A DNA stretch of 64,000 nt from Gemmatimonadales bacterium. Its GTDB lineage: Bacteria > Gemmatimonadota > Gemmatimonadetes > Gemmatimonadales > GWC2-71-9. The notes beneath the pieces are model-generated. The model was not told where the DNA came from. It ran no database searches and was given only the letters and a program-made list of their open reading frames with translations. Positions 1,886 through 18,320 of this stretch are shown here, one piece after another (the stretch's first letter is position 1; each line of letters starts with the position of its first letter). A program made the translations under genes and the position numbers. The stretch is from the NCBI GenBank assembly GCA_036279355.1, contig DASUJH010000007.1, forward strand, positions 62,001-126,000. The letters are read 5' to 3'.

Positions 1886-3504
1886 ACCCGCTTTCGCATT
1901 CTCGCTGGCAGGATCCCGAGCTGGTCCCGGTACTTGGCGACGGTGCGCCGCGCGATCTGGATGCCCTGCTCCTGGAACAGATGCACGATCTGCTGGTCGG
2001 TGAGCGGTTTGCTGGTCTTTTCGTCCGCCACCATCTTTTCGAGCTTGGCCCGGATGGACCGCGCGCTCGCATCCTCACCCGAGGCGGTCGAGAGCGCGCT
2101 CGAGAAGAAGAACTTGAGCGGGAGCACGCCGCGCGGGGTCTGCACGTACTTCTCGTTGGTCACCCGGCTCACCGTGCTCTCGTGCATGTTGATGACCTCG
2201 GCCACCTCGCGCAGCGTGAGCGGCTTGAGGTACTCGATGCCCTTCTCGAAGAAATCCCGCTGCCGGTCGACGATGAAGTTCATCACCTTGAGCATCGTCT
2301 GGCGCCGCTGCTCGATGGCCTGGATCATCCAGTTCGCGCTGTTCATCTTGGCGGCGATGAACTCGCGGTTCTCCGGCGTCATCTTCTTTTTGTCGCGCGC
2401 CACCTCCTGATAGGCCCGGCTCAACCGGAGCCGCGGCATGCCCGTGTCGTTGAGGAACACGTGGTAGCGCTCGCCGATTTTCTCGACGATCAGGTCGGGG
2501 ATGATGTAGCCGTCGTTCCGATCGGAATACTTGAGCCCGGGCTTGGGATCGAACCGCGCGAGCCCGTCCGCCGCTGCCTGCACCCGCGCGGGGTCGACGC
2601 CGAACCGCTTGGCGAGGTCGTTCCAGCGGTGGGCGATCAGGTCGGGGAACGCGTCGGCGACAAGCCGATAGGTGAGAGACTCGGTGTCACCCGCCTCGCG
2701 CAATTGGATGAGCAGGCACTCGCGAAGGTCCCGCGCGCCGACGCCGGCGGGGTCGAGGCGCTGAATGATGGCGAGAAGGTCTTCGGCCTCGGCCAGGGTA
2801 TACAGGGCCTCGGATGGGACGGCAGGGGGTTGAGTGGGCGCCAGCGGCGGTACAGACGGCAGAGGCGGGAGTGCCTCGGCCGGCACGGCGCCGTGCTCGG
2901 CCATCAACTCGGCGACCTCGTCGATCGCTTCGGCGTCGATGTCCGTACCGCCTCGACCGTCACGATCGCCGCCACCGCCCTCCTTCCCGGCAGTTGCGAA
3001 GTGGTTCGCCACGAGCTGGTTGACCGACCCGATGATCTCCTCCAGCGAGGCCGCAAGGTAGCCGTCGTCGGTCATGTTGCCCAAAAACTCTTCCGCCAGC
3101 AACCGCTGGCGCGGCGTCAACTCGCTGTGATGGAGCTGCTCCCGGAGGTGATCGGTGAGGTTTCGCGTTTCGACGGTGACCGGCTCGGTGTATTCCTGCA
3201 CCTCGAACTGCTCGCGCGTGCCGCCGACGTCGAAGCCGTTGAGCAGGATCTCCTCCCAGTCCACCTCGTCGTTCTTCTGCTGCTGCTCCTTCTCCTGATC
3301 GTTCGTGGCCTGCGCCTCTTCGGTGGTTTCCTCCTCGGGCTCGAGGAGCTCGAGGAACGGGTTGGCCAGGAGTTCCTGCTTCAGGTGCTGCTGCAGGTCC
3401 ATCATGGGCATGTAGAGCATGTCCATGGCCTGGTAGAGCCGCGGATTGACCCGAAGCTCCTGGCGGAGGCTCGTCTGCTGGGAGAGTCCGGTGCGGAGGC
3501 TCAT
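1882..3504 (-). CDS. rpoN: RNA polymerase sigma-54 factor
   Basis: 540-residue RpoN. Region I is Gln/Leu-rich (MSLRTGLSQQTSLRQEL) and contacts bacterial enhancer-binding proteins. An acidic linker follows (around residues 55-85), and a low-complexity Asp/Gly/Pro stretch interrupts the core-binding part around residues 170-230. The C-terminal DNA-binding region ends in the RpoN box ARRTVAKYRD at residues 518-527, which reads the -24 element. The gene follows lptB with a 4-bp overlap, the same neighbourhood as in Proteobacteria. No activator or PTS-Ntr kinase gene is adjacent. Confidence 0.97.
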   Translation of the reverse strand: MSLRTGLSQQTSLRQELRVNPRLYQAMDMLYMPMMDLQQHLKQELLANPFLELLEPEEETTEEAQATNDQEKEQQQKNDEVDWEEILLNGFDVGGTREQFEVQEYTEPVTVETRNLTDHLREQLHHSELTPRQRLLAEEFLGNMTDDGYLAASLEEIIGSVNQLVANHFATAGKEGGGGDRDGRGGTDIDAEAIDEVAELMAEHGAVPAEALPPLPSVPPLAPTQPPAVPSEALYTLAEAEDLLAIIQRLDPAGVGARDLRECLLIQLREAGDTESLTYRLVADAFPDLIAHRWNDLAKRFGVDPARVQAAADGLARFDPKPGLKYSDRNDGYIIPDLIVEKIGERYHVFLNDTGMPRLRLSRAYQEVARDKKKMTPENREFIAAKMNSANWMIQAIEQRRQTMLKVMNFIVDRQRDFFEKGIEYLKPLTLREVAEVINMHESTVSRVTNEKYVQTPRGVLPLKFFFSSALSTASGEDASARSIRAKLEKMVADEKTSKPLTDQQIVHLFQEQGIQIARRTVAKYRDQLGILPARMRKRV

Positions 3505-4676
3505 GCCGCCGCCTCGAGCCGCGCGCGGAGGCGCATGGTGAGCGTCGGCCCGAGGTAGAGCTGCGCCACGCGGTCATCATAGACGAGCGCGCGCACGGTG
3601 CCTTCGGCCTGGACCTTTCCCTCGAACATGATGTAGGCGCGATCCACGATATCGAGCGTCTGCTCCACGTTGTGGTCGGTGATCAGCACGCCGATGCCCC
3701 GGTGCCGGAGTCCGGCGACGATGGTCTGGATGTCGTGCACCGCGATCGGGTCGACCCCGGCGAACGGCTCGTCGAGCAGCATGAACTTGGGCTCGGTGAC
3801 GAGCGCACGGGTGATCTCGAGCCGGCGCCGTTCGCCGCCGCTCAGCGCGTACGCCTTCACCGCGCGCAGGTGGCGGATGCCCAGCTCGTCCAGCATCCGC
3901 TCGAGCAGGCGGCGCCGCTCGTCGCGCTTGAGCCGGCGGGTTTCGAGAATCGCCCGAATGTTCTCCTCGACGGTCATTCTACGGAAGACCGAGGGCTCCT
4001 GCGCCAGGTAGCCGATCCCGGCGCGGGCGCGGCGGAACATCGGCGCGCGGGTGAGGTCGCGCGCATCGAGCGTGACCCGACCGGCCTCGGGCCGCATGAG
4101 CCCGGTAAGCAGGTAGAACGTCGTCGTCTTACCGGCGCCGTTCGGGCCCAGGAGCCCCACGATCTCGCCCTGGGCGAGGCGCACCGTCACGCTGTCCACC
4201 ACGTGGCGCCCCCGAAAGCTCTTGGTGAGATCGCGTCCCTCGAGCACGCTGCCCACGCGCGCCGGCTCGGGCTGAGCCGCATGGCCGCCCGCCTGCTCGG
4301 CCGCCGAGAGGAGGAGCGCCGCGGCACCGGCGCGCTCGGACGACACCTCGGTCCACCACGCCGATGCCGCGCGGACGTCCGGCCATTCGCCCGCCCGGTG
4401 ATCGCCGCCGCGCTCTTCGACCTGCGGAGGCTCGATCCAGCCGTCCGTCACGAGGCGTGGCAGCACCGAGCTCACCACGTGATCGCGCACGGAATCGGGC
4501 AACCCTTCGGCCGGCTGGTAGACCCGCATGAACCCGTCGCGGTAAGCAAGCAGCATCGCGTCGAGTGATGCGCGGCCCTCCGCGTCGGCCGTGCGAACCA
4601 GCGCCGCGAGCGCAAGCGGGATGGAGGCGTCGGCGGTGTCGAGCCGCGCGAGCCACGCAGGAGGTGCGTCGATCAT
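3501..4676 (-). CDS. lptB: LPS export ABC ATPase with long N-terminal extension
   Basis: 391 residues; LptB is normally about 240. Residues 144-391 form a full LptB-type ATPase: Walker A GPNGAGKT at 177-184, Q-loop YLAQEPSVFRRMTVEENI, signature ALSGGERRR, Walker B FMLLDEPFAGVDP and H-loop ITDHNV. The protein would power lifting of LPS from the inner membrane through LptFG to LptC and LptA. Residues 1-143 are an unrecognised, mostly helical segment. The reading frame stays open upstream, but the ATG at 4676 overlaps the lptA stop as ATGA, so I start there. Even this start gives a clear N-terminal fusion. rpoN follows by a 4-bp overlap. Confidence 0.93.
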   Translation of the reverse strand: MIDAPPAWLARLDTADASIPLALAALVRTADAEGRASLDAMLLAYRDGFMRVYQPAEGLPDSVRDHVVSSVLPRLVTDGWIEPPQVEERGGDHRAGEWPDVRAASAWWTEVSSERAGAAALLLSAAEQAGGHAAQPEPARVGSVLEGRDLTKSFRGRHVVDSVTVRLAQGEIVGLLGPNGAGKTTTFYLLTGLMRPEAGRVTLDARDLTRAPMFRRARAGIGYLAQEPSVFRRMTVEENIRAILETRRLKRDERRRLLERMLDELGIRHLRAVKAYALSGGERRRLEITRALVTEPKFMLLDEPFAGVDPIAVHDIQTIVAGLRHRGIGVLITDHNVEQTLDIVDRAYIMFEGKVQAEGTVRALVYDDRVAQLYLGPTLTMRLRARLEAAA

Positions 4677-6132
4677 GGTTTGCGTGGCGCCGAATGCGCC
4701 GAGTCGCCCGCTGCCGGGACGGGCGGCGGCGGGGGGGCCGGGTGCGTCGAATCGGCCGGGGCAGCGGGCGCAGGATGCGCCGAGTCCGCCGGCACCGGCG
4801 ACGCCGAGGGCGCGCCGAGAGCGGCGCCAGCCGACGACGTGTCGTTCGACGGCTCGAGCTCCGCACCATGGACGTGCCCGTGCAGCTCGACCAGGTCGGC
4901 GCGGTCGCTGCCGTCGGGCTTGAGCGTGATCACGATCTCGTCCGCCCGGGCGTAGCTCACCGATGGCCGCTCGGCGGGTTTCTTCGGATCGCGCTCCACC
5001 CGGTAGGAGCGCGCGGAGTCGCGCGCGACCAGTCTGGTGAGCACGGTCCGCTCTTGGCCGGCGGAGTCGTGGGGCGCAAATCGCGCGACGACGGTGTCGC
5101 CCGCGAGCCAATCGCGCTCTTTCGTGGCAGAATCGACGGCGCCGCCGAGCCACGCGCGGCGGAACGCGCGCGCCTCCTCAAGCTGCTGGCCGGGCGTGTC
5201 GAGCGCGAGCGAATCCGCCCGGATCTCGTGATCCGGCGAGGTAGCGACCGGACGCAGGCTGTCGCCCCATGCGCGGGTGCGCTCGAGCTTTCGGTGATCC
5301 ACGTCGAGGGCGATCGTGTCGGCCACCAGGGTCCAGTCCTTGTTTACGGCCTTGCTGTCGTGCTGCGCGAGCACGAAGGTGAGCTCGCGGTCCTTGAGCT
5401 TGAAGTCGATGCGCCGCCCGCTCAGGTCGAACGTGTCTGCGCCGAGTCCGTGGAGCTCGGGCCGCTCACCCAGGAGCGTGCCGTCGCTCCCCTTCCCGGT
5501 GTCGAGGCGGAGCGAGTCGCCGCGGGCGGCAAAGTCGCTTCGATCGATGGTCACCTTGCCCCCGCCCCACACCTGGTCATCGCCCTTGATGCGCACCCGG
5601 TCGGCCACGATGATGTACGGCTCGGCCGGGGCGCCGGCGGAATCCTTGGCGGCGTACGCGATGCGCGGACGGCTCACGGCATAGAGCTGCGTCGTGTCGC
5701 GTACGCCCTGCACGGTGCGGTAGTAGTCGAGCGACGGACCCTCCAAGGTCGAGCCGGTCTTGAGGTTCTGCGTCTTCACGTGGCCGCGGGCTTCCCAACG
5801 CTCGGCGGCGCGGTAGTAGGTGCCGCGGTCAGCGTCCATGGTGAGGGTGGAGTCGCGATACCGCACGTCGCCGATGAACTCCACCACGTTGCCGGCGTAG
5901 GAGGCGACGCTGTCGCTGCGCATGGTGATCGCGCTGTTCCGGCAGCGAAGCCGCACGTTGCCTCCGGCGAAGTAGTTGGTGCCCTGCGGTGTTTCGACCG
6001 CGATGCCCTGCCGGTCCACGTTGTCGATTTGGAGGGTGCACCGGTCGGCCGCCGGCGTGCCCTGCGCCGCGGCACCGCGCGCACCGAACGTCGCCAGCGC
6101 CATTCCCACGAGCAGCGCCCCACGCCCGGCTC

Positions 6133-6136
<4 letters not shown>
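4673..6136 (-). CDS. lptA: LptA/OstA-like periplasmic LPS-transport protein
   Basis: 487 residues with a cleavable signal peptide (LLVGMALATFGARGAAAQG). The body has several OstA-type beta segments (NYFAGGNVRLRC, NVVEFIGDVRYRDST, DQVWGGGKVTID), the fold that bridges LPS across the periplasm. It is far longer than E. coli LptA (185 residues) and ends in a Pro/Ala tail with DSAHPAP-type repeats (about residues 435-487). It starts at GTG, overlapping the lptC stop by 4 bp. The length leaves open a closer relation to the N-terminal part of LptD or to a stand-alone OstA family protein. No LptD barrel is present. Confidence 0.8.
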
Positions 6137-8438
<2,302 letters not shown>

Positions 8439-8534: not shown

Positions 8535-9149
8535 TTATACAGTAGCCGCCGGCTGGGTGAGCCGGGCGGCGCCGGCCAGCTCGAAGAAGTTCTGCAGGAT
8601 CTGCTTCCCGTAAGCCGTGCCGACCGACTCGGGGTGGAACTGCACGCCCCATACGGGGAGCGCGCGATGGCGGAGGGCCATGATCTCCGTCCCCGCGGGG
8701 CGGTCGGAGGACCAGGCGGTAATTTCGAGCTCGGCCGGAAGCCCATCGGCAGCCACGACGAGCGAGTGATAACGCATCACGGTGAGCGGCGAGGGCACGC
8801 GGGCAAAGAGCGTGCGGCCGTCGTGCACCACGTCGGTGGTCTTGCCGTGCATGAGCCGATCGGCGCGCACCACCCGGCCTCCGAACGCCTCGCCGATGGC
8901 CTGGTGACCGAGGCAAACGCCGAGCAACGGTACGCGGCCCGCGGCCGCGCGCACGAGCGGAACTGAAATCCCGGCCTCGGCGGGCGTGCGGGGACCCGGG
9001 GAAATGAGAATTGCGGCGGGTGCCAGGGCGAGCACGGCCTCGGGCGTGATCTGGTCGTTCCGGTAAACCAGCGGCTCCGCGCCGAGCTCGCCGGCGTACT
9101 GCACCAGGTTGTAGGTGAAGCTGTCGTAATTGTCGAGGACGAGGAGCAT
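8535..9149 (-). CDS. pabA: Anthranilate/aminodeoxychorismate synthase glutaminase subunit
   Basis: 204-residue class I glutamine amidotransferase of the TrpG/PabA family. It supplies ammonia to TrpE (tryptophan) or PabB (folate). It starts with the family hallmark [13 protein letters not shown]. The catalytic triad is complete: C79 in GVCLGHQ, H172 and E174 in FHPES. No trpE or pabB lies in the window, so this may be a shared amphibolic subunit and the symbol is only a best guess. It lies 32 bp after the next upstream gene on the same strand. Confidence 0.88.
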
Positions 9150-9181: not shown

Positions 9182-9898
9182 CTAGTGATCGCGCGCGGCC
9201 GCGCGGAGCGAGTCGCGCAGCACCTGCCCCCGGTGCCGCATGGAGTCCACGAAGGGCTGCATGGCTTGCCGGATGGAGTCGGCCACGTGCTCGTGCGCGC
9301 CGGCCATCGAGTCTGCCATGCGGCGCGTGGCCGCTTCAATCGAGTCGGCCATGCGGTCGGCGGCTTCGCTGATCGAGTCCGCGGTGACTTCGGCGCTCGC
9401 CTGCGCTCGTGCCGCGGCGTCGCTCTGGTGAAACTCGGCGGCGAACTGGCGCGGCACGAGCAGCGGCAGCGTCAGGCCGCCCGGTTCCAGCGCGAGAGTG
9501 CCGAACCGCACGGCATCGGTGCCGGCGGTGTCCCGCAGGCAGTGGAAATCGGCGTTCTGGATCTGGACGTGCCTGCCGGCGGCGATGGTATCGATCGAGG
9601 CGAGGAGCGCGCAGTCGGCAAGGGAATCGGCATTCACCGAATCTGCGAGCTGCGCCCTGAGCTTCACCCCTGAGAGCTTGCCGGGCGTCTTGCGCAGAAA
9701 CACGATCCGGTCGAACGTCCCGAGCCGGCGGCCGTCGATCCGGAAGGGGACGAAGGCGAGGGGCACCACGATCGGGTCGGTGCTGTTGGCTACGTCATGC
9801 GCCCGCTCGACGCCCGCGCGGACGGCAGTGATGAGAACCATGCCGACGGCAAAGACGCCAAGGGCGCCAAGCAGGATCTTGATCCAGTAGGTCCGCAT
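9182..9898 (-). CDS. Membrane-anchored protein with C-terminal 11-residue DS repeats
   Basis: 238 residues, family not recognised. An N-terminal membrane helix (about residues 8-26) is followed by a beta-rich region of about 130 residues, then six 11-residue repeats from 173 to the end: [55 protein letters not shown] and [11 protein letters not shown]. These should form a hendecad-type helix, probably outside the inner membrane. The ATG at 9898 is chosen because MRTYWIKIL begins the membrane helix. It lies only 10 bp from the divergent ABC gene, so its promoter must lie inside that gene. Confidence 0.7.
9185..9382 (-). repeat. Six 33-bp (11-residue) coding repeats
   Basis: Six degenerate 33-bp units at the 3' end of the preceding gene, each with a core of x-D-S-(I/M/L). 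Conservation is at protein level more than at DNA level, so this is an old coding repeat. Confidence 0.75.
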
Positions 9899-9908
9899 CG
9901 GAGCGCGC

Positions 9909-10646
9909 GTGATCGAAGTAGAGTCACTGTCAAAGGTGTACGGACCGGTCGACGCCGTCCAGGGTCTCACCTTCCGGGTTGGGCCCGGCGAGGTGCTCGG
10001 GCTCGTGGGTCCGAACGGCGCCGGCAAGACGACGACGCTCCGCAGCATTGCGGGCATCGTCCGCCCGACCGCGGGCACCATCCGCATCGCCGGGTACGAT
10101 CTGGCGCGTGATCCGGTTTCGGCCAAGCGCGCGCTCGCGTTCGTGCCCGACGAGCCGCACCTCTTCGACTACCTCACCGTCGAGGAACATCTCCGCTTCA
10201 TCGGCCGGCTCTACGGCGTGGCGGACGTGGGAGCGCGCATGGCCGCGCTCCTCGCGGAGCTCGAGCTCACCGACAAGCGGAACGTGCTCCCGGGCGAGCT
10301 GTCGCGCGGGATGCGGCAGAAGCTCGCCATTGCCTGCGGGCTGCTGCACGAGCCCAAGGCGCTGGTGCTCGACGAGCCGCTCACCGGGCTCGATCCGGTC
10401 GGCATCCGGCGGCTCAAGGAGACGATCCGGCGCCGCGCGGCGGCGGGCGCCGCCGTAATCCTCAGCTCGCATCTCCTGCACCTGGTCGAGGAGGTATGCG
10501 ACCGGGTGCTGGTGATGCGCCAGGGCCGGGTGCTCGCGGCGGGTCGGATCGCCGAAATCGTTGCGGGCGATCCGGCACTCGCGGGGCGGCCGCTGGAGGA
10601 GGTGTTCCTCGCGCTCATCGCGCGGCCGGAGGTCGAGTCCCCGTGA
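9909..10646 (+). CDS. ABC exporter ATP-binding subunit
   Basis: 245-residue ATPase of the CcmA/drug-exporter type. Walker A GPNGAGKT at 34-41, Q-loop in LAFVPDEPHLFDYLTVEE, signature LSRGMRQKLAIA, Walker B ALVLDEPLTGLDP and H-loop SSHLLH are all present. It starts at GTG with GGAG 5 nt upstream (9900-9903). Its stop overlaps the GTG of the permease gene, so the pair almost certainly forms one exporter. Substrate unknown. The gene is divergent from the DS-repeat membrane protein with only 10 bp between start codons. Confidence 0.9.
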   Translation: MIEVESLSKVYGPVDAVQGLTFRVGPGEVLGLVGPNGAGKTTTLRSIAGIVRPTAGTIRIAGYDLARDPVSAKRALAFVPDEPHLFDYLTVEEHLRFIGRLYGVADVGARMAALLAELELTDKRNVLPGELSRGMRQKLAIACGLLHEPKALVLDEPLTGLDPVGIRRLKETIRRRAAAGAAVILSSHLLHLVEEVCDRVLVMRQGRVLAAGRIAEIVAGDPALAGRPLEEVFLALIARPEVESP

Positions 10647-12373
10647 CCGCGGGTGCGCTCGGGTATCTCACCCGCCGGTCGATGGCCAACCGCATGGCGC
10701 GGCAGGCCGCACAGTTGCGGAGCCCGCGCTACGTCGCGGCGCTGCTGCTCGGCGTGGCGTATCTCTGGTACGTCCTCGTCCACCAGCAGCCGGGCAGGGT
10801 ACCGGGCGGTGTGCCGCGCGCGTGGGTCGTGCTTGCCGGCGCGCTCGGTCTTGTGGGCCTCGTGACGTGGAGCTGGATCGTGGGCTCCGGACGGCGCGCG
10901 CTCGCGTTCTCACCGGCGGAGGTGACGCTGCTCTTCCCCGCCCCGCTCACCCGGCGCACGCTGGTGCACTACAAGCTGCTCCGCTCACAGCTCGTCATCC
11001 TCTTCAATACAGTGCTCTGGACGTTGCTGCTCGGCTGGAGCAACGACCGGCTGGCGCCGCCGTTCCGCGCGCTTGCGATCTGGACCCTGTTGTCGACCCT
11101 CTCGCTCCACCGCCTCGGCGCCGCGTTCGTGCGCGCCGGCCTCAAGGAGCACGGGCCGGCGCGGCTCGGCCGGCGCGCGGTGCCGCTGCTCGTCGCGCTG
11201 CTGGCGGCAGCCGTGCTCCTGGGGAGTGTCATGGCCGCGCTGCCGGAGCTCCGTGACGCGGCCGGCCGGGGAGTGGTCCAGCTCATCTCTGCGTTCGTGG
11301 CAGCGCTCTCGCGTCCCCTGCCGGCATTCATTCTCTGGCCATTCAAGGCACTGGTGCGCCCGCTCGTGGCGGTGCACGCCGCTGGGTGGGCGCGCACCAT
11401 GCCCGCGGCGCTCGTGGTGCTCGCAGTGCACTATGTCTGGGTGGTGCGCGCCGACGCGGAGTTCGAGGAGGCGGCTGCCGAGGCGTCGCTCGCGCGGGCA
11501 CGGCGGCGAGCGGAGCGGCGGGTGCTGGGTGTGCCGGCGGTGGGCAGCGGGGGTCTCGTGTCCCCGCCACTCGTGGCGCTCGCGCCAACCGGCTGGCCCG
11601 CGGCGGCGCTCCTCTGGAAGAACGTGACGGCGGTGGTCCGGCGCCGGCGGGCGCGCAACATCGCGGCGCTGTTCGTGGTGGTGGGGACGCTCGCCGCCGC
11701 GGGGTCCGCGCGCGGCCGCGGGAGCCTGTCGGAAGTCGCGGCGACGCTGGCCGTAACCTGGTGCGCGTTCCTGTTCTTTCTAGGGCCGCACTGGGTTCGC
11801 AATGACCTGCGCGCCGATCTCACGCGATTCGACGTACTGCGCGCGCTGCCGCTGCGTGGACCCGCCATCGTCGCGGCGGAGGCGCTCGCATCGAGCCTCA
11901 CGCTCACGGTGATGGAGCTCGGGCTGCTCGGGCTCGGTTATCTCGGCCTCCTCGCCAATCACGAGTTCGACGTGCCGCTGGACGAGCGCACGTTCATCCT
12001 CATGGCAGCCGTGCTGCTGCTGCCGCCGATCAACTTCGCGGCCATGCTGCTCCAGAACGGGGCGGCGCTCGTGTTTCCGGCGTGGGTCCGGCTCGGCGCG
12101 GACGCGCGCGGGGTCGAAGCGCTGGGCCAGGGGGTGCTCGCGACGGTTGCCTACACCGCGGTGCTCGTGCTGCTCCTGCTCCCGGCTGTGGGCATGGGCG
12201 TAGCGCTCGCGCGGGCGCTCCAGCCGGCGTTCGGGCCGTGGGCGCTCGCGCCCGGCGCGGCGGCGGGATTCGCGGTGTTCGCGCTTGAGCTGCTGTCGCT
12301 CGTGCGTTGGCTCGGGCGGATGTTCGAGCGGACGGATCCGGCGGAGGTCGGACTCGAGGCCGCCCGTGAGTAG
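10643..12373 (+). CDS. Large ABC exporter permease
   Basis: 576 residues starting at a GTG that overlaps the ATPase stop. About ten hydrophobic segments are visible, for example YVAALLLGVAYLWYVLV, VPLLVALLAAAVLLGSVMAAL and ALVVLAVHYVWVV. A charged cytosolic loop (EAAAEASLARARRRAERR) lies between the two halves. It resembles the large permeases that partner a single CcmA-type ATPase, such as bacteriocin or antibiotic exporters of the ABC-2 superfamily. I cannot name the substrate. The next gene starts 8 bp before its stop. Confidence 0.8.
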   Translation: MTAGALGYLTRRSMANRMARQAAQLRSPRYVAALLLGVAYLWYVLVHQQPGRVPGGVPRAWVVLAGALGLVGLVTWSWIVGSGRRALAFSPAEVTLLFPAPLTRRTLVHYKLLRSQLVILFNTVLWTLLLGWSNDRLAPPFRALAIWTLLSTLSLHRLGAAFVRAGLKEHGPARLGRRAVPLLVALLAAAVLLGSVMAALPELRDAAGRGVVQLISAFVAALSRPLPAFILWPFKALVRPLVAVHAAGWARTMPAALVVLAVHYVWVVRADAEFEEAAAEASLARARRRAERRVLGVPAVGSGGLVSPPLVALAPTGWPAAALLWKNVTAVVRRRRARNIAALFVVVGTLAAAGSARGRGSLSEVAATLAVTWCAFLFFLGPHWVRNDLRADLTRFDVLRALPLRGPAIVAAEALASSLTLTVMELGLLGLGYLGLLANHEFDVPLDERTFILMAAVLLLPPINFAAMLLQNGAALVFPAWVRLGADARGVEALGQGVLATVAYTAVLVLLLLPAVGMGVALARALQPAFGPWALAPGAAAGFAVFALELLSLVRWLGRMFERTDPAEVGLEAARE

Positions 12374-13277
12374 CGCGCCCGCGCCACACCGCGCAGGCCC
12401 ACAGTCGACAGACCGGCCGCGCTACGTTGAGTGGGCGGCCGGCGAGCAGCTTGCGCCCTGGGTAGATCGCTACTGGTGCTCCGGCGCGGCGCACTCGGCC
12501 CCGCACCACACGCGCGTACTGCCGGACGGATGCGTCGATCTCGTCTTCGACCTTGCGCATGCCGACGCGCCGCTCGTAGTGGGCGCCATGCGCAGGCCCC
12601 TCCTAGTGCGGCATTCGGGACCGGTGGACATCGTGGGCGTGCGGTTCCGGCCCGGAGGCGCGTTGCCGTTTCTCGACGTGACGCTTCGGGAGCTCACCGA
12701 CGCGCGCGTGCCGCTCGCCACGTTCTGGGGGAGTGAGGCGGACGCCATCGTCGCCGCGCTTCGGTCGGGCACCGGGCGCGACCGCGTGCGACATCTCGAG
12801 CGCGTGTTGCTGCTCCGCCGACGCGCGCGGATCGCCGCCGGGCGCGAGGGCGAACTCGTGGGCGCCGCGGTGAACTTGCTGGGTGCCGAGCACCGCCCCG
12901 CCGCTGTACGGGAAGTAGTGGCCGCACTCGGAATCGGCCAGCGGGGTCTGGAGCGCGCGTTCGAACGGTGGGTGGGGCTCAGCCCCAGAGTGCTCGCGCG
13001 GGTGTTCCGATTTCAACGGCTCGTTCGCCGGATCGGGGATGCTGCCGAGGCGCCGCGCTGGGCGGCCGTCGCGGCGGAGGCGGGCTACGCCGACCAGCCG
13101 CATCTCATTCGTGACTTCCGGGCGCTCGCCGGCATTACCCCGGCGCGGTTCGCGGTGGAGCGCCGTGTCGGAAACGTTCAAGACGCCGCGGCCGCGGCGA
13201 GTAGCTTTCGACCTTCTCCTGCATCCGAGTGTTCCGATGAGCGCATCGAGCCCACCGCTGCACGGCGCCGAGCATGA
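12366..13277 (+). CDS. AraC-type transcription regulator with DUF6597-like sensor
   Basis: 303 residues. Residues 20-130 resemble the DUF6597 N-terminal domain (YVEWAAGEQLAPWVDRYW, RVLPDGCVDLVFD, VRFRPGGALPFL). The C-terminal half is an AraC double helix-turn-helix (VREVVAALGIGQRGLERAFERWVGLSPR, then WAAVAAEAGYADQPHLIRDF and GITPARF). It starts at the GTG overlapping the permease stop, so it is probably co-transcribed with the exporter and may regulate it. The stop is called at 13275-13277, which makes it overlap the next gene by 41 bp. Confidence 0.88.
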   Translation: MSSAPAPHRAGPQSTDRPRYVEWAAGEQLAPWVDRYWCSGAAHSAPHHTRVLPDGCVDLVFDLAHADAPLVVGAMRRPLLVRHSGPVDIVGVRFRPGGALPFLDVTLRELTDARVPLATFWGSEADAIVAALRSGTGRDRVRHLERVLLLRRRARIAAGREGELVGAAVNLLGAEHRPAAVREVVAALGIGQRGLERAFERWVGLSPRVLARVFRFQRLVRRIGDAAEAPRWAAVAAEAGYADQPHLIRDFRALAGITPARFAVERRVGNVQDAAAAASSFRPSPASECSDERIEPTAARRRA

Positions 13278-13611
13278 TCGGCGCATCGACTACATCGAGC
13301 TGCCCGCGACCGACGTCGCGGCCGCCAAGGCGTTCTATGCCCGCGCCTTCGGCTGGACGTTCACCGACTATGGGCCGGACTACACCAGCTTTGAGGACGG
13401 CCGGCTGGCGGGTGGATTGCGGAAGGCAGAGGTCGTGGGGCGGGACGGGGTGCTGGTGGTGATCTTCGCGGTGGACCTGGCCGCGACGGAGGCGCGGGTG
13501 CGCGGGGCGGGCGGCACAATCGTGCAGCCGGTGTTCAGCTTTCCGGGCGGGCGCCGGTTCCACTTCACCGATCCGAGCGGGAACGAATTGGCGGTGTGGT
13601 CGGATCGGTAG
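13237..13611 (+). CDS. VOC (glyoxalase/bleomycin-resistance fold) protein
   Basis: 124-residue single-domain VOC protein. IDYIELPATDVAAAKAFYARAFGW is the typical first strand and helix, and FHFTDPSGNELAVWSD the last strand with the metal-ligand Glu position. Such proteins bind small hydrophobic ligands, isomerise or cleave substrates, or give drug resistance. The ATG at 13237 lies inside the end of the regulator gene, so the two are translationally linked. It is the last gene of the exporter-regulator unit; function unassigned. Confidence 0.85.
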   Translation: MSASSPPLHGAEHDRRIDYIELPATDVAAAKAFYARAFGWTFTDYGPDYTSFEDGRLAGGLRKAEVVGRDGVLVVIFAVDLAATEARVRGAGGTIVQPVFSFPGGRRFHFTDPSGNELAVWSDR

Positions 13612-13655
13612 CGCCGCCGCGGCGCCGGCGCGCGGGGAGTCGGCCACAATGCAGT

Positions 13656-13686
13656 CGGCGGCGGGCGCCCAAGGGGCCCGCCGCCG
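13656..13686. terminator. GC-rich hairpin between convergent genes
   Basis: Perfect 11-bp inverted repeat (13656-13666 and 13676-13686) with a 9-nt loop, in the 107-bp gap between the VOC gene (plus) and the DS-repeat lipoprotein gene (minus). Position suits a two-way terminator. There is no T-run on either side, so termination would rest on the hairpin alone. Confidence 0.5.
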
Positions 13687-13718
13687 TGCGCTGCCACCAG
13701 CCGGCCCACCAGCCGGCC

Positions 13719-14132
13719 TCAGCGGGTGCTGTCGCCCATCCGGCTCATCGCCGAATCGTGCATGCGGCCCATCTTGCTACTCGCGCTGTCCCGCATCCGC
13801 CCCATCTTGCTGCTCGCGCTGTCCTTCATTCGTCCCATCTTTGCCGATGCGCTGTCGCGCATGCGGCTCATGCGGTTCGAGGCCGTATCGCTCGTGCCGC
13901 TCGTTGTGCTGTCGGCCATGCCGCTGGACGTGTCGCGCATGCCGCTCATCGACGTATCGCTCGCCCCCGGCGCCGCCGGCGCCATGCCGGTGTCGCTCGG
14001 CGTCGCGCCGGTCGACATGCCAGCGGTGTCGCCCATGGCACCCGTATTGTCGCTGCCGGCGCGGTTCCCGGGCGAGCTACACCCGGCGAGCGCAACGACG
14101 AGCGCCGCCACGATCAAGTCCGTCCGTGTCAT
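13719..14132 (-). CDS. Small lipoprotein with 11-residue DS repeats
   Basis: 137 residues, no known family. The signal peptide ends in LAGC, a clear lipobox, so the protein should be lipid-anchored. The mature part is rich in Ser, Thr, Gly, Asp and Met. From residue 88 it becomes four near-perfect 11-residue repeats built on MGRMRDSASSK. GGGAG about 6 nt before the ATG is a good ribosome site. Likely helical and periplasmic. It stands alone, 108 bp downstream of the RND operon, and nothing in that gap was recognised. Confidence 0.75.
   Translation of the reverse strand: MTRTDLIVAALVVALAGCSSPGNRAGSDNTGAMGDTAGMSTGATPSDTGMAPAAPGASDTSMSGMRDTSSGMADSTTSGTSDTASNRMSRMRDSASAKMGRMKDSASSKMGRMRDSASSKMGRMHDSAMSRMGDSTR
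13740..13871 (-). repeat. Four 33-bp tandem coding repeats
   Basis: Four consecutive 33-bp units encode the 11-residue repeats of the lipoprotein (units MSRMRDSASAK, MGRMKDSASSK, MGRMRDSASSK, MGRMHDSAMSR). DNA similarity between the middle units is high, which suggests recent unit duplication. Confidence 0.85.
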
Positions 14133-14240: not shown

Positions 14241-17200
14241 TCACGTCCGGTCGAAACGGCCGAACCGGAGTGCCAGCGTGGGCAGGACGAAGAGGCTCAG
14301 CACGGTCGAGGTAAGCAGGCCGCCCAGAATCACGATGGCCATGGGCCCCTCGATTTCGCGGCCCGGATCGCCGCTGCCGAGCGCCAGCGGCAGGAGGCCA
14401 AGCGCGGTGACGAGGGCCGTCATGAGGATGGGACCCAGGCGCTCGAGCGCGCCGCGCACGGCGGTCTCCAGACCCCACGCCGCGCCTTCACTCACCATCA
14501 GGTGCTGGTAGTGCGAGATCAGCATGACCGCGTTGCGCGTCGCGATGCCGAAGAGGGTGACGAAGCCGACGAGCGAGCCGAGCGAGAGCAACCCACCCGT
14601 CGCGAAGACGGCCATGATGCCGCCCACGAGCGCGAACGGAAGATTGGCGAGCACGAGCAGCAGCCGGCTCGCATTGCCGAACGCCAGCCAGAGGAGCATC
14701 ACGATGCCGGCACCCGCCAGCAGGCTGTGCAGCAACAGCTCGCGCTGCGCCTCCCGCTGGGCCGTGGCGGAACCACCCAGCTCGGCGTAGACGCCGGCAG
14801 GCAGTTTCGCGGTGCGGAGCCGGCGCTCGACCGCGCGCGCGAATCCCGCCACGTCTTCACCGGCCGCGTTAGCCGTGACGAGCTGCAACCGGCGCGCGCC
14901 CTGGTGTGCCACCGAAAAGCGCCCGGTGGTGCGCGCGATGTCCGCCACCTGCGAGAGCGCCACGAGCCTGCCGCCGGCCGACACGACCGGGAGATCGCGC
15001 AGGTCCTCCGGCCGGGCGCGGGCAGTAGAATCGAGCAGCACGACGACGTCGGTCGAACGATTGCCCTCGAAGGTTTCGCCCACCTTGACGCCGCGGGTTG
15101 CCGCCTCGACCGCGGCGAGCACCTCGTCCGCGCCGAGGCCCGCGGCAGCGACATCCGCGGGGCGGACGCGCACGGTGACCTCGGGCGTCACCGGCGGCGG
15201 ATCGTACTGTACGTCCGAGGCGCCGGGCGCGCTCTTCACCAGCTCGGCCACGCGGCGCGCGGCGACGTCGAGGCTATCGAGATCGTCGCCGTACACCTTC
15301 ACCACGAGCTGCGCGGTGGACCCCGTGATCGTCTCCTCGATCCGCTCGGCCAGGAAGCCGCGGATGGCGAAGTTGACGCCGGGAAAGTGCGCGAGGATTC
15401 GGCGCAAATCGTCCTGCATCGTCTCCGCCGCTCGCCCGGCGAGCGGCACGAGGTCCACCTCGAACTCGGTGTAGTGCGTGCCCCAGGTGTCCTCCGACAG
15501 TTCCGCCCGCCCGATCCGCTGCGCGACGGCGCGCACCCGCGGATCGCGGCGGAGCGCGGCCGTCACCTGCTGGCCCAGGCGAAAGGATTCGTCGAGCGAG
15601 GTACCGGGCACGGCCGACATGTGGACCAGGTAATGCCCCTCGCGAAACTCGGGGAGAAACGTGGCGCCGAAGAACGGCAGCGTGGCGGCGGCGGCAACGC
15701 AGGTCGCGAACGCCGCGGCCGCCACTGCCATGGGGCGCGCGCAGAGCCAGTGGAGTGCGCGCCCGTAGCCGCCCTTGAGCCACGCGAGAAAGCGGGATTC
15801 GTGCTCCGCGCGACCGCGCCGGGCGATGAGAGTGAGCGTGAGCGCCGGGGTGACCGTGAGCGCGACCAGCAACGACGCAAGCGTCGCCAGGATGTACGCC
15901 AGGCCGAGCGGGCGGAAGAGCGCGCCCTGGACGCCGGACAGCGCCAGCACCGGCAGGAACACGAGGGCGACGACGAAGGTGGCGTACACTACGCTGCCCC
16001 GCACCTCGAGTGAGGCATCGATCACCACATCCCCGATAGCGCGCGGCGAGCCGGATGCCCGGTTGAGCCGGAGCCGGCGCGCGATGTTCTCGACGTCGAT
16101 GATCGCGTCGTCCACCACCTCGCCCAAGGCGATGGCGAGACCGCCCAGCGTGAGGGTGTTGATGCCGAAGCCGAAGCGGTCGAGCACGATGATCGCGGCG
16201 AGGAGCGAGAGCGGAATCGCGGTGAGCGAGATGGCGGCCGCGCCCACGTCCGCCAGGAACACGAACAGCACGACGGCGACGAGCGCCGCGCCCAGGAGGA
16301 GCGACGTCGTGATGTTGCGCAGCGCCAGGTCGATGAACTCGGCGGGCCGGAAGAGGGCCGGGTGCAGCGTGAGCCCGGCCGCGCGGATGGCCGGCTCCAT
16401 CTGGCGCAGGGCGGCCTCGGCGCCCGCCGCAACCACCTTGGTGTTGGCGCCGAGCTGCGCCGAAATGACGATGACGAGACCGCGCTCGCCCATGACGCCA
16501 CCCTCGCCGATGCGGGGCGCGCCGCCTTCGATCACGTGGCCCAGGTCGCGGAGGCGCAGCACCGCGCCGTCTCGCTCGCGCACGACGGCGCCGGCGAGCA
16601 CGTCGGGATCCACGAGCTGGCCCTCGGTGCGCACCACGATGCGCTGGTTCGGGCTGTCGATGACGCCGGCGCCGCGCACACCGGTGGCCCGCTCGGCGGC
16701 CGCCAGCACCTCGGGAATGCCGACGCCATGGAGCCTGAGCCGTTCGGGGTCGAGCAGAATCTGAAGCTGCCGCACCTCGCCGCCGAACACGGCGACCTTG
16801 GCGACACCGCGCGTCGCGAGGAGCCGCGGGCGCATGACCCAGTCGACGAACGTGCGTTGCTCGATCGGGGTGCGGGTCTCCGAGGTGATGCCCACGATGA
16901 GCACGGTGCTCGATGACGAGGTGAGCGGGCTCAGGACGGGTGGCACGACGCTCGCCGGCAGGCGGCTCGCCGCCTCACTCAGCCGCTCGGCGATGGCCTG
17001 GCGGGCACGGTAGATCTCGGTGCCTTCGGCAAGCACCGCCGTGATGACCGAGAGCCCCTGGATGCTTTGTGATCGCACGGTCGCAACACCGCTCACCCCG
17101 TTGATCGCATCTTCGATCGGCCTGGTGACCAGGATCTCCACCTGCTCGGCGGAGAACCCGGGCGCCTCGGTCTGGATGGAGACCTGCGGCGGGGCGAACT

Positions 17201-17321
17201 CGGGGAACACATCGAGCTTGGCGTTGCGCAGCACGTCGAGACCGTAAACCACGACCGCGAGCGCGAGCCCGATGACGATCCCGCGATGCCGGACCGAGAA
17301 CCGGACCAGGGTGGAGAGCAT
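14241..17321 (-). CDS. RND efflux pump, CusA/CzcA (heavy-metal) family
   Basis: 1026-residue inner-membrane RND transporter of the HME group. Both halves are complete, with SVRHRGIVIGLALAVVVYGLDVL at the start and LGGLAIALGEVVDDAIIDVEN in TM4. In that helix the proton-relay acids appear as E401, D404 and D405, instead of the DFG...VDG pattern of CzcA. Where CusA has a substrate methionine, this protein reads SAVPGTSLDES, so silver or copper is not implied. It likely exports a metal ion or a small organic molecule using proton flow. It follows the adaptor gene by 3 bp. Confidence 0.9.
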   Translation of the reverse strand: MLSTLVRFSVRHRGIVIGLALAVVVYGLDVLRNAKLDVFPEFAPPQVSIQTEAPGFSAEQVEILVTRPIEDAINGVSGVATVRSQSIQGLSVITAVLAEGTEIYRARQAIAERLSEAASRLPASVVPPVLSPLTSSSSTVLIVGITSETRTPIEQRTFVDWVMRPRLLATRGVAKVAVFGGEVRQLQILLDPERLRLHGVGIPEVLAAAERATGVRGAGVIDSPNQRIVVRTEGQLVDPDVLAGAVVRERDGAVLRLRDLGHVIEGGAPRIGEGGVMGERGLVIVISAQLGANTKVVAAGAEAALRQMEPAIRAAGLTLHPALFRPAEFIDLALRNITTSLLLGAALVAVVLFVFLADVGAAAISLTAIPLSLLAAIIVLDRFGFGINTLTLGGLAIALGEVVDDAIIDVENIARRLRLNRASGSPRAIGDVVIDASLEVRGSVVYATFVVALVFLPVLALSGVQGALFRPLGLAYILATLASLLVALTVTPALTLTLIARRGRAEHESRFLAWLKGGYGRALHWLCARPMAVAAAAFATCVAAAATLPFFGATFLPEFREGHYLVHMSAVPGTSLDESFRLGQQVTAALRRDPRVRAVAQRIGRAELSEDTWGTHYTEFEVDLVPLAGRAAETMQDDLRRILAHFPGVNFAIRGFLAERIEETITGSTAQLVVKVYGDDLDSLDVAARRVAELVKSAPGASDVQYDPPPVTPEVTVRVRPADVAAAGLGADEVLAAVEAATRGVKVGETFEGNRSTDVVVLLDSTARARPEDLRDLPVVSAGGRLVALSQVADIARTTGRFSVAHQGARRLQLVTANAAGEDVAGFARAVERRLRTAKLPAGVYAELGGSATAQREAQRELLLHSLLAGAGIVMLLWLAFGNASRLLLVLANLPFALVGGIMAVFATGGLLSLGSLVGFVTLFGIATRNAVMLISHYQHLMVSEGAAWGLETAVRGALERLGPILMTALVTALGLLPLALGSGDPGREIEGPMAIVILGGLLTSTVLSLFVLPTLALRFGRFDRT

Positions 17322-17324
17322 CGG

Positions 17325-18320
17325 CTATTCGTTCGCTTCGTCGCCCACGGTAACGCGGGCGCGGAATTCCTCGGAGAGCAGTTGCTCGGCGCCTTCGATC
17401 ACGACGGGCGTGCCGGGCTCGAGCGTGGTGGCGAGCATTCCGCCGGCTACCGGGCGGTCGGTCGGTACGCGCACTCTCGAGAAGCGGCCTGGCTCGCGCT
17501 CGACGTAGGCCCAGACGAGGCCCTCCCATTGCACCAGCGCGCGGTCCGGGACGAGCACGCCGCGGCGCGCGGAGCCGCCGCGCGGGAGGAGAGCGAAAAC
17601 CGCGGCGCCCGGCCGTGCGCCGGACCAGCTCCGCTCCGCGCGGTAGAGAAACGCGGGGAGCCGGGTGAGCGCATCGGCTTCGGGAGAGGCACCGACGAGA
17701 CGCGCGGTCACCCGGCCACCGGTGCGTCCGGGCGCCACGAGCGCGAGCGAAGCGGGCGGCCGCGGTGCGTCGGCCGGCCATGCGATGCGCGCAAGCGGTT
17801 GGGTGTAGTCGGTGATCTCGAGCAGCACCTGGCCGGGCTGCACCATTTCGTCCGGCTGCGCGCCAACGTGGGTGACCACGCCGCCGCGCGGCGCGGCGAG
17901 GGGCTTCGCGTCGGACACCTGCGCCACGAGCGCGCCTGCCGACACCCGGTCCCCAAAGCCGGGCCAGTGCGCGCCGTCGGGAACGCTGAGCCGGCCAGCG
18001 AGCGGCGCGCGCACCGCGGCCGTGCGATCCGGCTCGGGCACCAGCTCGCCGGTAAGCCGGACCTCGGGCGCCGCCACTGCGGCCCGCACCGGAGCCACGC
18101 GAAGGCCCAGGCGGCGCTCATCGGCGGTGTCGAGCACGACCGTGGCCTCGCCGCCGCTCTCCCGCACGCGGCTTGGCGCCACGACGGGCTCCTGCAAACC
18201 GGCTTGCGCCTCCAGCCGAGCCTCATGGCGATGATACATGGTGACGAGCCATACGCCCACGAGGACCGCCGTCGCCAATGCGAGCGCTGACGCGAGCGCG
18301 CGCGGGAGCGGGCGGCTCAT
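17325..18320 (-). CDS. RND periplasmic adaptor (membrane fusion protein)
   Basis: 331 residues with an N-terminal membrane helix (about residues 8-28). Paired lipoyl-type halves are visible: VRLTGELVPEPDRTAAVRAPL then GDRVSAGALVAQV, and GGVVTHVGAQPDEMVQPGQVLLEI. A beta-barrel region with VPDRALVQWEGLVWAYVE follows. It links the RND pump to the outer-membrane channel. The helical hairpin is very short, as in some metal-efflux adaptors. No His/Met-rich metal-binding tail is seen. ATG overlaps the stop of the channel gene. Confidence 0.88.
   Translation of the reverse strand: MSRPLPRALASALALATAVLVGVWLVTMYHRHEARLEAQAGLQEPVVAPSRVRESGGEATVVLDTADERRLGLRVAPVRAAVAAPEVRLTGELVPEPDRTAAVRAPLAGRLSVPDGAHWPGFGDRVSAGALVAQVSDAKPLAAPRGGVVTHVGAQPDEMVQPGQVLLEITDYTQPLARIAWPADAPRPPASLALVAPGRTGGRVTARLVGASPEADALTRLPAFLYRAERSWSGARPGAAVFALLPRGGSARRGVLVPDRALVQWEGLVWAYVEREPGRFSRVRVPTDRPVAGGMLATTLEPGTPVVIEGAEQLLSEEFRARVTVGDEANE

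Follow-up and report, generated by a model that had tools for sequence, protein, structure and literature searches.

A probable MCE-like protein and a nearby lipoprotein with apparently convergent 11-residue repeats in a Gemmatimonadales bacterium

The stretch of DNA analysed here, hereafter referred to as the window, spans 64,000 nucleotides of a Gemmatimonadales genome (GCA_036279355.1, contig DASUJH010000007.1, positions 62,001 to 126,000), and encodes two envelope proteins with C-terminal 11-residue D-S repeats, labeled A and B. The genes and features considered are listed below, in positions of the window.

9182–9898, minus strand: protein A, 238 amino acids, with a membrane anchor, a putative MCE-like beta domain and a hendecad tail (open reading frame, homologues and model)
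9785–9895, minus strand: A residues 2–38, N-terminal helix including the transmembrane segment (sequence and model)
9452–9772, minus strand: A residues 43–149, putative seven-strand MCE-like domain (model, fold and profile comparison)
9185–9382, minus strand: A residues 173–238, six D-S hendecads (repeat analysis)
8535–9149, minus strand: TrpG/PabA, in the same direction as A and 32 bp behind it
6708–8384, minus strand: PyrG CTP synthase (profile match)
6133–6711, minus strand: LptC, beginning with a lipobox (the author selected the start codon)
4673–6136, minus strand: LptA/OstA-like protein (assigned by the author from the sequence, without a Pfam or NCBIfam match)
3501–4691, minus strand: LptB ATPase (TIGR04406, 339.6 bits, cut-off 240)
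9909–10646, plus strand: ABC ATPase, divergent from A, with 10 bp between the start codons
10643–12373, plus strand: ABC_export membrane protein (PF16962, Pfam match), following the ABC ATPase
13719–14132, minus strand: protein B, 137-amino acid lipoprotein, lipobox LAGC, Cys18 (open reading frame and lipobox)
13896–14078, minus strand: B residues 19–79, low-complexity linker rich in D-T and M, predicted unstructured (model)
13722–13895, minus strand: B residues 80–137, 11-residue repeats, LEA_4-like, with a predicted helix at 80–133 (repeat analysis, Pfam and model)
14241–17321, minus strand: CusA/CzcA-like RND pump gene, lying 108 bp ahead of B (PF00873 above cut-off; TIGR00914 629.7 bits, below the cut-off of 701.45)
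17325–18320, minus strand: RND adaptor protein (TIGR01730, 35.0 bits, below cut-off)

The order behind A is trpG/pabA, pyrG, lptC, the OstA-like gene and lptB. An Rfam scan of the window gave nothing at gathering thresholds.

The 11-residue repeats described in the original prediction are real, and their coordinates are correct, with six D-S units in A and four, plus a D-T, in B. In A, the D-S pairs are found at residues 174, 185, 196, 207, 218 and 229, every gap being 11, and all six fall in one 11-phase (shuffle p at most 0.0005). In B, a D-T at residue 82 is followed by D-S at 93, 104, 115 and 126, with gaps of 11, and at 134, after a gap of 8. The lag-11 self-identity of the tail lies 7.9 s.d. 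over composition-preserving shuffles in A, and 11.2 s.d. over shuffles in B. An R-M at the end of the unit, said to be frequent in both proteins, is present in three of the four B units, but in only two of the six A units.

A DNA pattern for three D-S-like pairs spaced 11 apart, which is also satisfied by T, R, C and W codons following D, was used to search the whole genome (3.25 Mb). It gave eight matches, four of them overlapping in A, three located in B and one at a further locus, against one for the control; this further locus encodes a protein on C13 with one N-terminal hydrophobic stretch. Over the 61 genomes of the family, there were 176 matches to the pattern and 33 to the control, and many of those listed are clearly something other than hendecads. 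The genome-wide count leads me to reject the idea, raised in the original prediction itself, that the pattern is a general compositional habit of the secreted proteins of this genome. Small D-S/T-rich lipoproteins in several genomes of the family would favour a compositional accident of D-S-rich secreted proteins, but this is hardly credible given the same count and the spacing of 11 kept in the relatives of A.

The predicted structure of A consists of an anchor helix (residues 2–38), seven strands (residues 43–149) and a helical tail, an anchor-domain-helix arrangement. The N-terminal membrane anchor, a feature expected of the MCE family, is found both in the sequence and as helix 2–38 of the model, and two cysteines, Cys96 and Cys120, are invariant across the 15 rows of alignment A3. 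No Pfam match at gathering score and no NCBIfam match was obtained for A, and Pfam MlaD (PF02470) fails to match any of 15 A members at E 0.1; two Pfam-recognised MlaD proteins are encoded elsewhere in the genome (C2 and C11).

A Foldseek search of the PDB with the A model gave nothing at E 0.001; for the middle domain, ranks 1–5 are chains of the MlaD complex and LetB, these matches being weak (best E 0.17). VIA-align was run on Foldseek's 1000 best chains for the A model, and rows 1–27 are all MCE entries, with Z of 4.0–5.8, all below 8 and for a single predicted model. The MlaD core 5uw8_B aligns with a Z of 5.6 and an rmsd of 3.6 (77 aligned), and 6zy9_K with a Z of 5.5 and an rmsd of 2.9 (77 aligned), while the top non-MCE row on the beta domain has a Z of 3.0.

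Since a VIA Z below 8 alone may reflect a common arrangement, I also tested the sequence profiles of A. For the MCE profile, 30 MlaD loci were fetched, 23 extracted and 21 used; L122 and L124 were omitted, as their starts were not settable. With hhalign, the A profile (39 sequences, with the anchor helix) matched the MCE profile (21 sequences) at 90.5% with a score of 44.8, against 1.7% and 1.9%, with scores of 19, for reversed controls. Without the anchor helix, the A domain matched at 54% with a score of 28.7, over just 35 aligned columns centred on the motif P-F-x-x-x-G-x-x-x-G, which is aligned with P-V-x-x-x-G-x-x-x-G of the MCE proteins; the forced global alignment gave 2.5%. The maximum among 80 column-shuffled controls to this domain-only comparison was 17.3 and 2.4%, and that among seven unrelated families drawn from the same loci and compared with A was 15.8 and 0.34%. 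Compared to three MCE subgroups, A gave 80, 29 and 10%, versus 96–99% for these subgroups against each other. A search of PDB sequences with the A4 profile gave six matches up to E 1, none of them MCE, the best being apolipoprotein A-IV (E 0.022), on the tail. Structure and sequence profiles agree, each match being weak to moderate, and A is probably a very divergent MCE-like (MlaD-type) protein that is unseen by Pfam; its MCE fold is supported but not proven. The original prediction was right that the two proteins are unrelated outside of their repeats, but overlooked this domain.

A resembles MlaD of the MlaFEDB complex in its single transmembrane helix at the N-terminus, its one MCE-like domain and its C-terminal helix, and MlaD is among its best fold matches. 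Unlike MlaD, it shows no Pfam match, contains the invariant cysteine pair and a long D-S hendecad tail, and no MlaE is seen adjoining. No partner gene of the MlaE/YrbE permease, PqiA or LetA type is present among the scanned neighbours (TrpG, PyrG, LptC, LptB, the ABC ATPase and the PF16962 ABC_export protein), and for this reason A is referred to as an MCE-like protein and is assigned to none of the Mla, Pqi and Let systems.

I compared 13 A-bearing loci from relatives (L079–L091), some of them on short contigs. A neighbouring pyrG is present in ten, the divergent ABC ATPase in nine, trpG in eight, lptC in six and the RND pump in three, and on one 3.9 kb contig (L086) A stands alone. Protein B is matched in none of the 13. 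The matches to the pump and to the exporter lie ∼40 bp apart in L081 and L083, where the window has an AraC gene, a VOC-like gene (by my own reading) and B. The LPS-transport neighbours fit an envelope-lipid role of A, without demonstrating such a role. LptC starts with a lipobox in the window (6133–6711) as well as in L081, L082, L088, L090, L091, L107 and L108, and as read from these sequences the LptC of this group may be a lipoprotein instead of a transmembrane protein.

Both tails had been proposed to be helical, and long helices are indeed predicted, at residues 150–198 and 202–237 of A and 80–133 of B. In A, the block pLDDT is 48–62 for residues 161–210 and 79–88 for residues 211–238, and the strongest hydrophobic moment of the tail lies at 98.5 degrees, the hendecad angle, which was reached by none of 300 shuffles. 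Counted from D-S, position 0 is I or M and position 7 is M, V, F or L, so that the hydrophobic stripe is narrow (positions 0 and 7, with Ala at 3). By simple arithmetic (1.5 Å per residue), the 88-residue tail would measure ∼130 Å as a single helix.

PqiB and Mce1, too, have a long C-terminal helix after the MCE domain. PqiB is described as a hexamer of ∼230 Å with a C-terminal coiled-coil needle, working with the outer-membrane lipoprotein PqiC (PMC10897342), and Mce1 as having an alpha-helical needle, with a tunnel lined by hydrophobic residues (PMC9882608). PqiB possesses three MCE domains and Mce1 six different subunits, whereas A has one domain and hendecads, and no PqiC-like protein was noticed. 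In the open-licence part of PubMed Central, I found no published work on MCE or MlaD proteins in a Gemmatimonad, and none on an MCE protein together with a PqiB-type helical needle.

The tail of A might instead be a LEA- or apolipoprotein-like amphipathic helix, lying on the membrane or on LPS and forming no needle, with the MCE-like domain doing something else. It matches apolipoprotein weakly (E 0.052 in the domain search, besides the E of 0.022 given above), and the free-standing helix is modelled at low confidence. LEA-type 11-mers can also be disordered alone though predicted helical, as described for BilRI, an outer-membrane lipoprotein with eleven 11-mers that is disordered by NMR (PMC8096337). 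These points favour a surface helix, but the narrow stripe argues against it, as do the C-terminal helices which PqiB and Mce1 have in the same place (PMC10897342, PMC9882608), and I consider it rather unlikely.

The A family was identified in 24 of the 61 genomes of the family, and in 32 of the 249 genomes of the phylum, own genome included, every one of which belongs to the family of the window. The eight best-scoring named relatives (L102–L109) all keep a DS-rich tail, in which, past residue 150, the spacing from one D-S to the next is exactly 11 in 29 of 43 cases. The hydrophobic moment peaks at 97.5–100 degrees in six of these eight (L102–L104 and L106–L108, p 0.013–0.043), while a 98–100 degree peak is absent in L105 and L109. 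The D-S pairs in one phase amount to 5/5 in L016, 5/6 in L017 and 5/6 in L080 (p at most 0.0005 against shuffles in every case); the same test is nominally significant in L079, L020 and L043, and no better than shuffles in L018 (3/6) and L019 (3/7). Judging by these sequences, the hendecad tail of A is the older one, and is kept in close relatives.

More distant members carry other tails, consisting of 22-residue beta-type repeats or short charged segments, and the hendecad is therefore not required for the A family. Beta-type repeats, resembling A-D-S-x-G-x-x-L-x-V, are present in L021 (= L110), L030 (= L116), L031, L039, L040 (= L115), L041 and L043, and by eye also form the tails of L113 and L114; lag 22 is the strongest in six of the seven beta-type tails tested, with L041 the exception. 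These members suggest that the extension of the A family is exchangeable. A second copy of A in the same genome, of 150 amino acids (L003:6241-6690, corresponding to G000:C34:109240-109689), has no tail, and none of the window's neighbour genes was matched around it.

Protein B, folded without relatives, is predicted as a single helix spanning residues 80–133 (block pLDDT 75–90 for residues 81–130), with residues 17–79 unstructured. Its hydrophobic moment is 0.88 at 98.2 degrees versus 0.89 at 131 degrees; the helix stripe is not the sole periodicity of the B repeat, a second one being as strong. Each of the four units contains a glycine, and counted from D-S they have A at 0 and M at 4, and three of the four also have M at 7. 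LEA-type 11-residue repeats with helix propensity are present in B, and its tail matches LEA_4 with 45.0 bits (E 9.5e-12), which misses the cut-off of 51.1 (28.5 bits in the genome search); in 40 other genomes, no LEA_4 was found at E 0.001. Among solved structures, the single sequence match up to E 1 is SHERP (E 0.76), and I found no published hendecad lipoprotein of the periplasm in open-licence PubMed Central. B resembles BilRI of Aggregatibacter and the group 3 LEA proteins (LEA_4) as a lipoprotein with 11-mer repeats and a predicted helix, and differs from them in its Met- and Ser-rich units (D-S-A-S-S-K-M-G-R-M-x), its score below the LEA_4 cut-off, and its four or five 11-mers versus eleven. 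Since BilRI is predicted helical yet disordered, such a prediction does not prove that the tail of B is a helix.

No clear relative of the B repeat was found in the 60 other genomes of the family. Weak matches occur in G009, G012, G021 and G071 only (E 4e-4 to 0.007). On re-alignment with B, those in G071 and G021 prove to be of low complexity, and for the two G009 loci there is either no match or one at chance level. The G012 match is a small lipoprotein that is similar to B residues 1–77, signal included, without the repeat tail, and on this alignment the front half of B may have a relative in G012. A strict lipoprotein-gene filter applied to the window and 18 loci matched LptC, three other open reading frames of the window (B included) and two out-of-start fragments of A, and identified no B-like protein outside the window; it missed a lipoprotein-like open reading frame in L080. 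The latter, on the minus strand between 8100 and 10001, has LEA-like charged repeats and is located past the ABC exporter in G084, the side of B in the window. In other genomes of the family, L046, L099 and L101 encode very small Met-rich lipoproteins with D-S/T repeats, that of L046 being similar to residues 1–77 of B. The small lipoproteins of L096 (G025:C125:5754-5972) and L097 (G008:C164) have D-S/T repeats, some of them at a spacing of 11, and are the closest counterparts of the B tail elsewhere.

B is encoded last behind the genes for an outer-membrane factor, an adaptor and the RND pump, all on the same strand, the first two matching NCBIfam models below cut-off, and it possesses 17 Met in 137 residues, six MxxM motifs and one His. 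The best solved relative of this pump is ZneA, and in the pump alignment H, Y and E are found at positions 573, 623 and 672, which I take to be those of the CusA methionines; the pump thus lacks this presumed triad. B could be a Met-rich metal buffer for the adjacent pump, similar to SilE and PcoE for silver and copper pumps, which are likewise small Met-rich exported proteins by an RND metal-type pump. Its gene position and methionines are consistent with such a role, as is the helix that SilE forms on metal binding through Met/His motifs (PMC5008109). Unlike SilE and PcoE, however, which have ten His each, B is a lipoprotein with one His only, and the pump is present without B in L081–L083. 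The residues of the pump weaken the case for a Cu/Ag buffer in particular, and I regard a metal buffer as quite unlikely. I take B as a lipoprotein specific to its lineage, encoded behind a metal-type pump in the same orientation, with a LEA-like tail that is helical or becomes so conditionally; its function would most likely be protective or structural at the outer membrane.

The original prediction proposed that the two tails pair across the periplasm, that of A from the inner membrane and that of B from the outer membrane. This would be similar to PqiB and PqiC, where an MCE needle meets an outer-membrane lipoprotein (PMC10897342). The two are the only strong D-S hendecad loci of the genome and lie 3.8 kb apart, both have a hydrophobic residue at position 7 after D-S, and their tails have net charges of -2 (A) and +7 (B). 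Some link is also favoured by G008 and G025, which have A homologues with D/E-S tails, plus small D-S/T-repeat lipoproteins on other contigs, and by the G012 lipoprotein that is similar to B residues 1–77 but has no repeat tail. However, the genes for A and B, which should be encoded together in a PqiB-PqiC-like pair, are not in one operon. The co-occurrence in relatives that would be expected of partners is not seen: the A tail is conserved without B, B is matched in none of the 13 A loci and is absent from its slot in L081 and L083, and no clear relative of its repeat was found in the 60 other genomes. B is moreover modelled as one helix, not as a ring-forming domain, and each of its units contains a glycine. 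The proposed pairing thus finds no support, either between the tails or with B as a conserved partner of A; A-B pairing is unlikely, and its PqiB-PqiC-like form very improbable.

A common origin of the two tails is unlikely too. The serine of D-S is encoded by TCN in all six A units, while in B it is AGC at residues 93, 104, 115 and 134 and TCG at 126 (AGC in 4/5). The core residues differ, and the DNA identity of the units is 27–45% between A and B, compared to 33–67% within A and 67–85% within B. Because the A tail is kept, no clear relative of the B repeat was found in those 60 genomes, and the serine codons and core residues differ, A and B look like two unrelated envelope proteins whose 11-residue repeats are convergent.

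The best joint reading, to which I give a probability of about 0.6, is that A and B are unrelated proteins with convergent repeats, A being an inner-membrane MlaD-type protein with a hendecad periplasmic extension, and B a separate LEA-like lipoprotein. A would be held in the inner membrane by its one transmembrane helix, with the divergent MCE domain in the periplasm, followed by the C-terminal D-S hendecad helix. By analogy with MlaD, PqiB and Mce1, it may assemble as a ring, probably of six copies. Its tails would pack via the stripe of I/L/M and M/V/F/L, resulting in a helical extension toward the outer membrane, and hydrophobic molecules, presumably lipids, could pass through the assembly. 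The oligomer, the needle, the lipid cargo and any link to the divergent ABC exporter are all inferred.

A further reading, which I consider quite unlikely, is that A defines a new lineage of MCE lipid transporters, seen only in one Gemmatimonadales family. Its periplasmic extension would be interchangeable, made of D-S hendecad helices in one clade and of 22-residue beta repeats in other clades, and it would work with the lpt genes and the divergent ABC exporter, with lineage-specific hendecad lipoproteins like B as outer-membrane contacts. MCE proteins are lipid bridges and shuttles between bacterial membranes. If true, a Pfam-invisible MCE branch beside LPS-transport genes, with a variable tail, would imply that MCE extensions are replaceable module by module, and A would provide a compact single-domain system for testing the hendecad packing of a needle.
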